A stretch of DNA of 64,000 nucleotides from Paracoccus aminovorans (GTDB lineage Bacteria; Pseudomonadota; Alphaproteobacteria; Rhodobacterales; Rhodobacteraceae). Location of the stretch: contig NZ_LN832559.1 in the NCBI RefSeq assembly GCF_900005615.1, positions 2,557,001-2,621,000 on the forward strand, read 5' to 3'. Shown piece after piece: positions 4,715-36,350 of this stretch (position 1 is the stretch's first letter; the number at the start of each line of letters is the position of its first letter). The notes under the pieces were generated by a model. That model saw only the letters and a program-made list of their open reading frames with translations. It ran no database searches and had not been told where the DNA came from. The translations under genes were made by a program, and so were the position numbers.

Positions 4715-5682
4715 CACGCCCCCCTTTCGTCGAGGCGGGGCAGGCCCAGCGCCTCGGGATCGACGCGGCCGGCCGGCGATTCGGTGCGGATGCCGACCCG
4801 CAACAGGGCCGAGCGCGAACGCGGGTTCACCGCCAGCTCCTGCTCGTCCGGGCCGATGGCGCGGCGGAAGGGCAGCGTAAAGGCGGCCTCGGTCCGTTGG
4901 GTTTCGGGCGCATAGCGGCTGCCGCCGCCGGCGCTGTTCGAGCGCGCCTGCATGAAGCGCTTGACGATGCGGTCCTCAAGCGAATGGAAGCTGACAACGG
5001 CCAGCTTGCCGCCCGGCCGCAGCGCGCGCTCTGCCGCCGCCAGCCCGGCGACCAGCTGGCCGAATTCGTCGTTGACCCAGATGCGGATCGCCTGGAAGGC
5101 GCGGGTCGAGGGGTGGCTTTGCCCCGGCTTGGCGCGCGGCAGGCAGCCGGCGACGATGTCGGACAGTTGCCCGGTGCGGCTCAGCGGCCGCGCCGCCACG
5201 ATGGCCTTGGCGATGCGGCGCGAGGCGCGCTCCTCGCCGTAAAGGTAAAGCACGTCGGCGATGACCTGCTCGGGCGCGGTGTTCAGCAGATCGGCCGCCG
5301 TCGGCCCGTCGCCGCCCATGCGCATGTCCAAGGGGCCGTCGCGCAGGAACGAGAACCCGCGCTCGGGCTGGTCGAGCTGCATCGAGCTGACGCCCAGGTC
5401 CAGCACCACGCCGTCGACCGGCCCGCCGGCCAGCGTGTCGAGGTCCGAGAAGGTGCCCTGAACCAGCCGCAGCCGGTCGCCGTATTCGCCGGCCCAGACC
5501 GCGGCCATGCGGAAGACGCTGGGATCGCGGTCGATGCCGATGACCTGCGTGGCGCCCTGCTCCAGCAGGCCGCGGGCATAGCCGCCCGCGCCGAAGGTGC
5601 CGTCGACCCAGGTGCCCCCGACAGGCGCAACGGCCCGCAACAGCGGGCCAAGCAGGACGGGGATATGCGGATCGGGCACCAT
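4714..5682 (-). CDS. rsmH: 16S rRNA (cytosine(1402)-N(4))-methyltransferase
   Basis: Methylates N4 of C1402 in the 16S rRNA P site using S-adenosylmethionine (also called MraW). The 322 residues hold the family blocks DGTFGAGG (27-34), [10 protein letters not shown] (95-104), RGFSF (108-112) and DGPLDMRM (115-122). The ATG at 5682 directly follows the mraZ stop and has an exceptionally strong ribosome binding site 5 nt upstream. That site is perfectly complementary over ten bases to the loop motif of the RNA array at 8549-9042, suggesting this junction could be a target of translational control. Confidence 0.96.
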
Positions 5683-5697
5683 CTATCCCTCCTCCCT
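5683..5697 (-). promoter_or_regulatory. Very strong rsmH Shine-Dalgarno site, antisense to the CcsR-like loop motif
   Basis: On the minus strand 5697-5688 reads AGGGAGGAGG, placed 5 nt before the rsmH ATG. Its exact complement CCTCCTCCCT occurs in the loops of the stem-loop array at 8549-9042. The ribosome binding site is certain; the RNA interaction is an inference from complementarity. Confidence 0.7.
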
Positions 5698-7953: not shown

Positions 7954-8305
7954 GGCAACCCCCTTTTGCAGCCGCGGCAGAATGGCAATTCGGGCCGGGC
8001 TCGGCAAGCAGGGACAAACGCACATTCAGACCTAAGTGGCTGTGACCCCGCGTAAAATACGACCATTCCGCTCGCGCATCGCCGCCAACCTTGTAAAAAT
8101 GGCTGAAAATTTTAAGAAATATTAACGATTTGCGACAGGGTTCCCTGATCAGCCATGCCGTTTCTGCATAGCAGCATAGCGCCATCGTGCATTGTGCAGT
8201 TGCAGCAAACGCGCCATGTTGGCTCTAACAGCGCACCGGGCAAGACCGCAAAGCGAAAGCAAGCGAACCCCGACGCGCCATCCGCAAGACGAAAGAGTGT
8301 ATGAA
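7954..8305. other. Divergent intergenic region between apbC and the DUF1127/CcsR-like operon
   Basis: This 352-bp stretch holds no convincing gene. Bases 8088-8130 are clearly AT-rich against the surroundings and probably include the apbC promoter region or an upstream element. The right half leads into the DUF1127 transcript. Confidence 0.5.
8191..8220 (+). promoter_or_regulatory. Possible heat-shock-sigma (RpoH-type) promoter for the DUF1127/CcsR-like operon
   Basis: ATTG at 8191-8194 and CCATGTT at 8214-8220 resemble the CTTG ... CCATNT pattern of alphaproteobacterial RpoH promoters, with a spacer of 19 nt. The homologous operon in Rhodobacter sphaeroides is RpoHI/RpoHII-dependent. The match is partial and the call rests mostly on that analogy. 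Confidence 0.3.
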
Positions 8306-8533
8306 ATGGCTGTTCTCGATCTGATTCATGGCGGTGTCCACCGCAATACGGCCGGCAACGGCTCGATCGCGAAATTCGTGGCCGCTATCCGTGAGACCCT
8401 GGCCCGCCGTTCGGTGTATCGCCAGACCCTGCGCGAGCTGAACCAACTGTCCAACCGCGATCTGGCCGACCTCGGCCTGCACCGCGCCAACATCCCCAGC
8501 GTGGCCCGCCAGGCCGCCTACGGGACCAGATAA
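8306..8533 (+). CDS. DUF1127 family small protein (CcaF1-like)
   Basis: A 75-residue basic protein whose C-terminal half (RQTLRELNQLSNRDLADLGL, about residues 40-59) is the DUF1127 signature. In Rhodobacter sphaeroides the equivalent gene encodes CcaF1, a small RNA-binding protein co-transcribed with four CcsR RNAs and induced under oxidative and heat stress. The same arrangement is seen here: the stem-loop array starts 16 nt after the stop codon. I choose the ATG at 8306 because the family begins with MAVLD-like sequence; upstream in-frame codons lack similarity. Confidence 0.9.
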   Translation: MAVLDLIHGGVHRNTAGNGSIAKFVAAIRETLARRSVYRQTLRELNQLSNRDLADLGLHRANIPSVARQAAYGTR

Positions 8534-8548
8534 AGGCATAGAACACCC

Positions 8549-8617
8549 GACCCACTCCTCCTCCCTTGGGTCCGGGTTCAGGCGGCATCCTCCCTCCTCC
8601 TCCCTGAGGATGCCGCC
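8549..8617 (+). ncRNA. CcsR-like unit 1
   Basis: Short hairpin 8549-8554/8567-8572 (GACCCA/TGGGTC) and long perfect 12-bp hairpin 8581-8592/8606-8617. Both loops carry CTCCTCCCT. This unit follows the DUF1127 stop codon and lacks the ATACG linker seen before later units. Confidence 0.85.
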
Positions 8618-8630
8618 GATCAGATACGAT

Positions 8631-8696
8631 GAAGCCCCCTCCTCCCTGGGCTTCGCGTTCCGGCGGCTCCCTCTCCTCCTCCCTGGGGATGCCGCC
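8631..8696 (+). ncRNA. CcsR-like unit 2
   Basis: Short hairpin 8631-8637/8648-8654 (GAAGCCC/GGGCTTC) and longer interrupted hairpin within 8662-8696 (GGCGGC/GCCGCC outer stem). Both loops carry CTCCTCCCT. The ATACG linker lies just upstream. Confidence 0.85.
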
Positions 8697-8706
8697 ACCC
8701 CATACG

Positions 8707-8778
8707 GCGGGTCCCCTCCTCCTCCCTGGGTCCCGCGGTTCCGGCGGCCGCCTCTCTCCTCCTCCCGGAGGCGCCGCC
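8707..8778 (+). ncRNA. CcsR-like unit 3
   Basis: Hairpin 8707-8715/8728-8736 with one T-T mismatch, then an interrupted hairpin within 8743-8778 whose stem has one bulged C. Both loops carry the CCTCC repeat; the second loop ends in CTCCTCCC rather than CTCCTCCCT. The ATACG linker is upstream. Confidence 0.82.
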
Positions 8779-8791
8779 AAACCGATACGGC

Positions 8792-8861
8792 GAAGCCCCT
8801 CCTCCTCCCTGGGCTTCCCGGTTCCGGCGGCACCCCTCTCCTCCTCCCTGGGGGTGCCGCC
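8792..8861 (+). ncRNA. CcsR-like unit 4
   Basis: Short hairpin 8792-8798/8811-8817 uses the same GAAGCCC/GGGCTTC stem as unit 2, which suggests a recent duplication. The long hairpin 8826-8836/8851-8861 has an 11-bp stem. An extra GCAA-tetraloop hairpin without the motif (8866-8872/8877-8883) separates it from unit 5. Confidence 0.85.
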
Positions 8862-8891
8862 AAAATGCCGCCGCAAGGCGGCACGGAATAC

Positions 8892-8960
8892 GATGGTCCT
8901 CTCCTCCTCCCTGGGACCGTCGGATCGCGGTAATGGCGTCCTCCTCCCTGCCATTGCCGC
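8892..8960 (+). ncRNA. CcsR-like unit 5
   Basis: Hairpin 8892-8899/8914-8921 with one G-U pair, and hairpin 8927-8937/8950-8960 (11 bp with one G-U pair). Both loops carry CTCCTCCCT. The joining linker is GGATC rather than GTTCC. Confidence 0.82.
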
Positions 8961-8971
8961 ACCCCATACGC

Positions 8972-9042
8972 GGCCCCTCCTCCTCCCTGGGCCAGCGTTG
9001 CGCGGCGGTGCCCCCTCCTCCTCCCTGGGCACCGCCGCTTTT
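8972..9042 (+). ncRNA. CcsR-like unit 6
   Basis: Short 5-bp hairpin 8972-8976/8989-8993 and the terminal perfect 12-bp hairpin 9002-9013/9027-9038 followed by TTTT. Both loops carry CTCCTCCCT, and the last hairpin doubles as the array terminator. Confidence 0.85.
9002..9042 (+). terminator. Terminator of the CcsR-like array
   Basis: A perfect 12-bp GC-rich stem, 13-nt loop and TTTTCATTT tail. It separates the array from rlmJ, which begins 32 nt later. Confidence 0.8.
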
Positions 9043-9073
9043 CATTTCCGGGGTCGGGGTATAGGGGGAAATC

Positions 9074-9841
9074 ATGTTGTCCTATCAGCACGCCTATCAC
9101 GCCGGGAACCTGGCGGACCTGCACAAGCATGCGCTGCTGGCGTCGATGCTGGCCTATCTGACCGCCAAGCCGAAGCAGCTGTCCTATCTGGAAACCCATG
9201 CCGGGCGCGGGCTTTACGACCTGGCCGGCGCGGAATCGGAAAAGACGGGCGAGGCGGCGGCCGGCATCACCCGCGCGCTGTCCGAAAACTGGCTGCCGGC
9301 GGATCACCCCTTGCGGCAGGCGCTGGACGCGGTGCGCGCCCGCCACGGCGCCAACGCCTATCCCGGCTCGCCGCTGATCGCGCGGCATTTCCTGCGTCCG
9401 GGCGACGAGGCGCATCTGGCGGAACTGCACCCGGCCGAGCACCAGGCTCTGGCCCGGGTCGCCGGTTTCGCGCATCTGCACCGGCAGGACGGCTTCCAGA
9501 TGGCGCAGGCGATATGTCCGCCCACGCCGCGGCGGGGGCTACTGCTGATCGATCCCAGCTATGAGGTCAAGGCGGACTATGACGCCATTCCGCCCCAGAT
9601 CGCCAAGCTGGCGCGCAAGTGGAACGTGGGCGTGATCGCGCTATGGTATCCGGTGCTGACCGACCTGCGCCACGCGGCGATGGTCGAGACCCTGCGGCGC
9701 GATCATCCCGAAGCGCTGGTTTCGGAGGTGCGGTTCCCGCCGGCCCGACCGGGACACGGCATGGTCGGCTCGGGCATGGTCGTGCTGAACCCGCCCTACG
9801 GGCTGGACGAGGAAGCCCGGCGAATCGCGGCACTGTTCTAG
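9074..9841 (+). CDS. rlmJ: 23S rRNA (adenine(2030)-N(6))-methyltransferase RlmJ
   Basis: SAM-dependent enzyme that N6-methylates A2030 of 23S rRNA. The 255-residue protein begins with MLSYQHAYHAGNLADLHKH, the RlmJ signature, and contains LLLIDPSYE around residues 157-165, the catalytic DPxY motif of N6-adenine methyltransferases. It is slightly shorter than the roughly 280-residue Escherichia coli enzyme. The start ATG follows a GGGGGA ribosome binding site. It lies just beyond the array terminator, so it probably has its own promoter or depends on read-through. Confidence 0.93.
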   Translation: MLSYQHAYHAGNLADLHKHALLASMLAYLTAKPKQLSYLETHAGRGLYDLAGAESEKTGEAAAGITRALSENWLPADHPLRQALDAVRARHGANAYPGSPLIARHFLRPGDEAHLAELHPAEHQALARVAGFAHLHRQDGFQMAQAICPPTPRRGLLLIDPSYEVKADYDAIPPQIAKLARKWNVGVIALWYPVLTDLRHAAMVETLRRDHPEALVSEVRFPPARPGHGMVGSGMVVLNPPYGLDEEARRIAALF

Positions 9842-36062: not shown

Positions 36063-36350
36063 CTAGCCGATCCCTCCCCTGCGTCGTGCATGGGCCTTGG
36101 CTGCCAGCGCATCTGACGCGTTCAATCGAAGCGGCAGGCGGGCAGCGCGTGCCACCTCTGCCCGGGTCACGCCGATATCGTCCAGAATCTGGTCGTCCAG
36201 GCGGAGCAGGTTCAGGAACGCATCGCGCCTCTCCCTGTCCCGACGATTGGTTTCAAACCGACCCCGCAGCCGTGCCATCGCGGCGCGCAAGGCAGTCCCG
36301 ATCCACGGACTGCGCAAGGGCGGGTTCATGGTGCAGATTTCCTTGGCCAT
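36063..36350 (-). CDS. DUF1127 family protein
   Basis: A 95-residue basic protein whose core RRDAFLNLLRLDDQILDDIGVTRAEVARAA (split here over about residues 41-70) is the DUF1127 motif. A perfect AGGAGG ribosome binding site precedes the ATG. Unlike the DUF1127 gene at 8306 it is not followed by anti-Shine-Dalgarno hairpins. It is divergent from a LysR-type regulator with 100 bp between them, so that regulator may control it. Confidence 0.85.
   Translation of the reverse strand: MAKEICTMNPPLRSPWIGTALRAAMARLRGRFETNRRDRERRDAFLNLLRLDDQILDDIGVTRAEVARAARLPLRLNASDALAAKAHARRRGGIG

Follow-up and report, generated by a model that had tools for sequence, protein, structure and literature searches.

Behind a short DUF1127 gene of Paracoccus aminovorans, a species of a well-studied genus of denitrifiers, lies a run of hairpins with one recurrent loop, which raises the question of what kind of RNA locus this is, whether its size is exceptional and in what steps it grows. 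We analysed a 64,000-nucleotide stretch of the genome (the window, whose numbering is used throughout). The DUF1127 gene (8306-8533, plus strand) encodes a 75-residue, CcaF1-like protein (PF06568, E 1.2e-13), and 12 nt past its stop codon begins an array of twelve hairpins with CTCCTCCC loops (8546-9038, plus strand) grouped as six pairs, here called units. Among named DUF1127 relatives, those nearest to this gene are from Paracoccus. The initial annotation had described twelve hairpins in six pairs behind a DUF1127 gene, and the motif scan, the predicted fold and the PF06568 match bear this out; the twelve-hairpin array is thereby confirmed.

Unit 1 (8546-8619) consists of hairpins at 8546-8575 and 8578-8619, both with the CTCCTCCC loop, unit 2 (8626-8696) of hairpins at 8626-8658 and 8662-8696, unit 3 (8707-8778) of hairpins at 8707-8736 and 8743-8778, unit 4 (8788-8861) of hairpins at 8788-8820 and 8826-8861, unit 5 (8888-8960) of hairpins at 8888-8925 and 8927-8960 and unit 6 (8968-9038), which is strongly conserved within the genus, of hairpins at 8968-8998 and 9002-9038, all on the plus strand. 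A thirteenth hairpin on the same strand, without the motif (TGCCGCC-GCAA-GGCGGCA, 8866-8883), marks the boundary between units 4 and 5. The window has 13 copies of the CTCCTCCC motif where 3.58 would be expected, none of 100 shuffles reaches 13, and 12 of the 13 copies start within 8558-9018 on the plus strand. Read directly, the loop sequence is CTCCTCCCT in 11 of the 12 hairpins and CTCCTCCCG in the loop at 8759. All twelve motifs fell in hairpin loops in an unconstrained fold of 8534-9050 and also in a stem scan (single-hairpin folds were made with the motif forced open), and in a longer fold (8531-9070) hairpins 2 and 4, whose arms are similar, merged into one long-range pairing. The 517-nt array folded at -266.7 kcal/mol against a shuffle mean of -196.2, about 70 kcal/mol worse (z -13.8), with 0 of 100 shuffles reaching the array value. 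The last hairpin of unit 6, probably the transcription end, is followed by TTTTCATTT and then by rlmJ (9074-9841, PF04378). A simple scan of 8020-9100, in which the terminator rule takes only loops of 3-8, called neither promoters nor terminators. Minus-strand open frames span the array.

Searches with Rfam models addressed the nature of these units. At a lowered threshold, the CcsR1 model (RF02791) gave five full-length matches (1-83) in the register of the pairs, namely over unit 1 (8540-8621, E 5.9e-10), unit 2 (8623-8700), unit 3 (8702-8782), unit 4 (8784-8866, E 2.8e-10) and unit 5 (8886-8965), all below cut-off, with 27.9-47.4 bits (E 1.7e-4 to 2.8e-10) against a gathering score of 65.3; unit 6 gave no CcsR1 match at E<=1. 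Because these matches coincide with units 1-5, the hairpin pairs agree with the units of a known RNA, and because the scores lie below the gathering score we name this a CcsR-type locus and not a member of Rfam CcsR1. Weak matches below cut-off also came from 6C, ar7 and a Streptomyces RNA, so weak matches alone are no proof of membership. The ar14 model (RF02344) matched 8884-9003, spanning unit 5 and half of unit 6, with 63 bits and thus above its gathering score of 58.8. Across the genus, CcsR1 was matched at E<=0.001 in 123 of 125 genomes (above cut-off in one of the 125) and ar14 in 120 of 125.

The arrangement of the locus points the same way. As in CcsR loci, the RNAs follow a short DUF1127 gene directly, on the same strand, and each unit has two hairpins with CCUCCUCCC loops; as in cuckoo RNAs, adjacent hairpins share a constant loop motif on variable but paired stems. 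The stretch matched by ar14 is not a stand-alone RNA, since it sits inside a twelve-hairpin array behind DUF1127, and the simple scan of 8020-9100 found no ar14-type promoter of its own inside the array. By its sequence features, the array is classified as a Paracoccus CcaF1-CcsR-type (cuckoo/CIN1) locus, of a known kind and ordinary size. The CcsR/cuckoo assignment of the initial annotation therefore stands, on the DUF1127 linkage, the loops, the CcsR1 register and the ar14 match above cut-off.

In Rhodobacter sphaeroides, as here, a DUF1127 gene (ccaF1, RSP_6037) is followed by two-hairpin RNAs with CCUCCUCCC loops, CcsR1-4, which the available parts of the literature describe as derived from the ccaF1 3' UTR and matured by RNase E together with CcaF1 (PMC8625941, PMC10253847, PMC7866481, PMC8307010). 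The unit borders found here agree with the Rfam CcsR1 model, through which the comparison was made. The Paracoccus array differs in having six units instead of four, with diverged stems and Rfam scores below cut-off, AUACG at the boundary where the CcsR1 consensus has GUUUC, an extra motif-less hairpin and an upstream VtlR-box-like element, whereas a figure legend assigns an RpoHI/RpoHII promoter to R. sphaeroides. Cuckoo RNAs or CIN1 (Reinkensmeier and Giegerich 2015, as cited in the accessible text of PMC10253847, PMC4504443, PMC10746234 and PMC7143759) are said there to combine a conserved loop with unconserved stems, to be linked to short DUF1127 proteins and to have two to four hairpins per RNA, compared with twelve in one array here. 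The ar14/NfeR1 RNA of Sinorhizobium meliloti (RF02344) has the same loops and the same mode of structure; excerpts of the respective papers describe it as having three hairpins in 123 nt and a sigma-70 promoter of its own (PMC10746234), with loops that are equally acting anti-Shine-Dalgarno motifs (PMC10746234, PMC7143759), and an earlier survey, likewise available in part, lists three- and four-hairpin RNAs with the same loop as well as a relative from R. sphaeroides with two hairpins (PMC3927594). A search of the accessible literature gave no paper on CcsR-type RNAs in Paracoccus, array sizes may already stand in the 2015 cuckoo paper, and the main text of a P. denitrificans sRNA survey (PMC5107571) contains none of the terms Rfam, ar14, DUF, Shine or CUCC.

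Taken as a whole, the locus is best explained, with a probability that we put at about 0.8, as a CcsR-type locus that is cut into anti-Shine-Dalgarno sRNAs and copied pair-wise. The DUF1127 gene and the array would form one transcript under stress, and the array part would be cut at the unit borders by RNase E, probably with the help of the DUF1127 protein, into about six CcsR-like sRNAs of 70-85 nt. Through its two CCUCCUCCC loops, each such RNA would base-pair with many mRNAs at their Shine-Dalgarno sequences and reduce translation of these mRNAs under stress. Transcription, cutting, targeting and stress control are likely by analogy with the R. sphaeroides and S. meliloti literature. The hairpin pair would be the functional and heritable unit, gained and lost mostly as whole pairs and often as blocks of two or three, with selection keeping every loop and every stem. 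The anatomy and family match described above, like the conservation, stem compensation, pair register and copy-number distribution that follow, are direct observations.

Array size was compared across the genus with arrays taken from 82 of 125 genomes; DUF1127-linked arrays were counted in 75, and ten stretches without a recognised DUF1127 gene were dropped from the counts. By strict motif count, these 75 arrays held 7 (one array), 8 (16), 9 (one), 10 (15), 11 (one), 12 (22), 13 (two), 14 (14), 16 (two) or 20 motifs (one), so that twelve is the commonest number (22 of 75) in a range of 7-20. The initial annotation had regarded six units and twelve sites as a notable expansion and had proposed a tabulation of copy number in Paracoccus and other Rhodobacterales; this tabulation does not sustain the claim, since twelve is the modal size and larger arrays occur elsewhere in the Rhodobacterales. 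A Loktanella atrilutea locus has 23 motifs, and in another genus the whole-genome count of motif pairs goes up to 19. Of 390 genomes sampled across the order, 372 had one or more close motif pairs, irrespective of location; a reversed-motif control of these counts was not used as a null because the reversed motif occurs inside CCCCTCCTCCTCCC loops and so counts array hairpins too. Some species have several DUF1127-array loci, for example P. acridae with three (14, 4 and 4 motifs). The eight-motif array of one genome (G002) has no DUF1127 gene next to it, and three of the ten dropped stretches (G011, G024 and G084) hold three-motif arrays away from the single DUF1127 match of their genome, which recall the three-hairpin form of ar14; such unlinked arrays speak against the reading given above.

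Within and between arrays, the loops stay nearly the same and most of the stems drift. Units 2 and 4 of the window share the first-hairpin stem GAAGCCC/GGGCTTC, as had been noted initially, and are 0.84 identical, the highest identity within the array, equalled by the neighbouring units 3 and 4. Over 843 real sites the contiguous stem averaged 8.07 pairs, a mean that dropped to 4.37 when the right flank was taken from another hairpin of the same array and to 5.45 when it came from the same position in another species. The second-last hairpin says little on compensation because it is nearly invariant (5.35 vs 5.03). When the last two units of 69 arrays were aligned, 11 of 26 predicted pairs had both partners changed in one or more sequences. 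The near-constant loops and divergent stems of the initial annotation are thus found again, with stems that diverged yet stayed compensated, and its proposal of growth by copying with selection on the loops agrees with the copying described below and with the constant loops; the counter-case that it had named, an array with no compensatory stem changes, fails because the stems carry such changes.

The unit of growth can be approached from the motif counts and from the positions of similar units. The motif number is even in 70 of the 75 DUF1127-linked genus arrays, and four of the five odd arrays show a gap of 77-85 nt, which suggests the loss of the motif from a single hairpin. Array counts are non-independent events, the species being related; by parsimony on the DUF1127 tree, copy number changed 27 times, or 23 times with the five odd arrays set to even by hand. 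Units at least 90% alike formed 44 pairs in 20 of the 70 even arrays, 28 of them at a distance of two units, nine at three and seven at four or six, and none adjacent; permuting the unit order gave a mean of 11.7 adjacent like pairs, and none of 2000 permutations gave zero. At 85% identity four pairs were neighbours (equally few in 1 of 2000 permutations), and at 80% the neighbour effect was weak (31 adjacent pairs vs 39.3 expected; equally few in 76 of 2000). Outside the genus, near-identical hairpins (>=87%), taken from named-locus arrays of at least six motifs and from seven further large arrays, lay at an even distance in 117 of 122 cases and at an odd distance in 5. Copying thus mostly keeps the pair register and often involves two or three pairs together. 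All five odd-distance cases come from Kandeliimicrobium roseum (L098, 2645-3404), where most motifs are about 120 nt apart. Evenness of the count was rejected as a rule outside the genus, the 64 named other loci comprising 31 even, 28 odd and five without a motif; the pair rule is visible there in the even spacing of near-identical hairpins alone.

Judged from these patterns, arrays seem to grow mostly in whole pairs, and the pair organisation proposed initially is supported by the even counts, the spacing of like units and the CcsR1 register. New here are the even counts, the like units that are never adjacent and the even-distance hairpins, and pair- or block-wise growth is worth following. 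In the largest genus array, with 20 motifs (G063, L150), near-identical units stand at every second place; it consists of two-unit blocks copied several times.

The borders of the units carry marks of their own. The recurring ATACG linkers of the initial annotation were found in all five between-unit linkers, at 8624-8628 (units 1/2), 8702-8706 (2/3), 8785-8789 (3/4), 8888-8892 (4/5) and 8966-8970 (5/6), all on the plus strand; ATACG is not purely a linker, because in the final unit its last three letters join the stem of the odd hairpin, pairing with CGT on the opposite side. In the 70 even genus arrays it occupied 178 of 325 between-unit gaps vs 7 of 395 within-unit gaps. As a general signal of the family it was discarded, being weak outside the genus (20 of 335 gaps vs 7.8 expected by shuffling). 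Gaps in the genus measure 25-35 nt within units and either 29-43 nt or at least 51 nt between them. The 90 long gaps (>=51 nt), found in 54 of the 70 even arrays, are all at even positions; by pattern, 71 of the 90 contain a hairpin-like sequence without the motif, and 51 contain ATAGCC. The motif-less hairpin is a marker of some unit boundaries.

Twelve nearly identical loops on one RNA, 8-20 motifs in 74 of the 75 genus arrays (7 in the other) and loops that hardly vary while most stems drift would also suit an array that acts mainly uncut, as a multivalent clamp or sponge for many Shine-Dalgarno sites or for a protein such as the DUF1127 protein or Hfq, its valency being set by copy number. 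We regard such a mode of action as unlikely, given that ATACG is concentrated at the unit borders, that copy number shifts mostly by pairs and not by single loops and that, according to the parts available of three papers, RNase E cuts the R. sphaeroides CcsR RNAs apart (PMC8625941, PMC10253847, PMC7866481).

The position of the array behind its gene bears on a further reading. The first CTCCTCC core (last register) lies 21-27 nt past the DUF1127 stop codon in 66 of the 75 genus loci and 18-28 nt past it in 49 of the 59 named other loci having a motif, and in 59 of the 75 genus arrays the last hairpin has a T-rich stretch within 42 nt downstream. A first hairpin at so nearly fixed and short a distance from the stop codon, together with the T-rich stretch, could mean that the array serves mainly to stabilise or terminate the DUF1127 mRNA at its 3' end; for this role one or two hairpins should presumably be enough and constant loops in every copy would not be needed, and the terminator scan called no site at the locus, so that we consider it very improbable. 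A neutral GC-rich repeat tract, of the sort that slippage makes grow and with a copy number that differs among species (by parsimony, 23 to 27 changes), can practically be dismissed in view of the stem compensation, the loop conserved in every unit, the presence of a close motif pair in 372 of the 390 genomes of the order and the fixed place behind DUF1127 in most loci.

The variation in size matters because the copy number of anti-Shine-Dalgarno RNAs differs by species behind the same gene, which offers a natural dose series and raises the question of whether the number of like sRNA copies sets the strength of the stress response. The pair rule is in turn a simple, testable statement on what is visible to selection when a regulatory RNA is repeated. 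Tentatively, and with more doubt than confidence, the array might be a dosage device counted in two-hairpin RNAs, in which duplications or losses survive only if they keep the pair register, mostly as blocks of two or three RNAs. The identity of each unit within its block would then matter, alternate RNAs would not be interchangeable, and a motif-less hairpin at some boundaries would help to separate the blocks.

Putative targets were sought in the P. aminovorans genome, where 20 places have GGGAGGAG 3-10 nt before an ATG, compared with 4 places for the reversed pattern; among the 20, one site is counted twice and another place is the opposite strand of the array itself. The set contains rsmH in the window, narL (L246, above the cut-off of the NarL model) and the response regulator L242, all to be taken as candidates rather than established targets. 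The rsmH (mraW) leader (5680-5696, minus strand) is perfectly complementary to the array loop over eight bases. The L242 leader fits the loop, and its gene lies beside that of a NosP-like sensor (below cut-off). We had presumed L242 to be FlhR; FlhR was dropped as a target, since the model searches did not confirm this identity (the best NCBIfam model was ErdR, below cut-off). A presumed 16S 3'-end pattern (anti-Shine-Dalgarno tail) had 0 matches in the genome.

Upstream of the DUF1127 gene, about 140 nt before its start, lies a conserved element, TGCATAGCAGCATAG (8165-8179, plus strand), that resembles the Brucella VtlR box with 3 mismatches (motif string from PMC12595884). Closer to the gene lies a conserved, promoter-like block (TTGTGCA ... 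CCATGTT, 8192-8220, plus strand) of presumed promoter role, in which a sigma-70 scan called no promoter. With up to 3 mismatches allowed, VtlR-like sites were found upstream in 48 of the 75 genus loci and in 46 of the 64 named other loci, compared with 1 of 74 controls, and 93 of the 94 sites had one orientation. Such a site also precedes 9 of 31 array-less DUF1127 paralogues, and the element seems tied to the control of DUF1127 genes and not just to the array. Simple heat-shock-type patterns in the upstream region were not above shuffled sequence. An element like the Rhizobiales VtlR/LsrB box stands before Rhodobacterales DUF1127 genes, though LsrB is stated to be unique to Rhizobiales in the accessible part of one paper; the corresponding part of another describes the trxB-vtlR arrangement as well conserved in Alphaproteobacteria. 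VtlR/LsrB was set aside as the regulator, no LysR gene being seen by eye beside trxB in the P. aminovorans genome.

The leaders of the DUF1127 genes were themselves weak partners of the loop. None of the 75 array-linked leaders has GGAG (0 of 75), which 50 of 134 genes annotated on P. denitrificans plasmids do have, and the array-linked leaders paired with the loop at a median of -4.1 vs -7.0 kcal/mol. Self-immunity, in which the gene would escape its own loops, was rejected as an explanation, as the array-less paralogues also lack GGAG (0 of 31, at any candidate ATG), these 31 being mostly the best-scoring 30 of a longer list, with the window gene at 36063-36350 (L121) left out; the weak site is common to these DUF1127 genes, so self-immunity is not specifically supported. 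That array-less window paralogue (36063-36350, minus strand) has a strong AAAGGAGG site, unlike most DUF1127 genes read, and GGAGG occurs in two array-less DUF1127 genes, this one and one from Nioella (L064).
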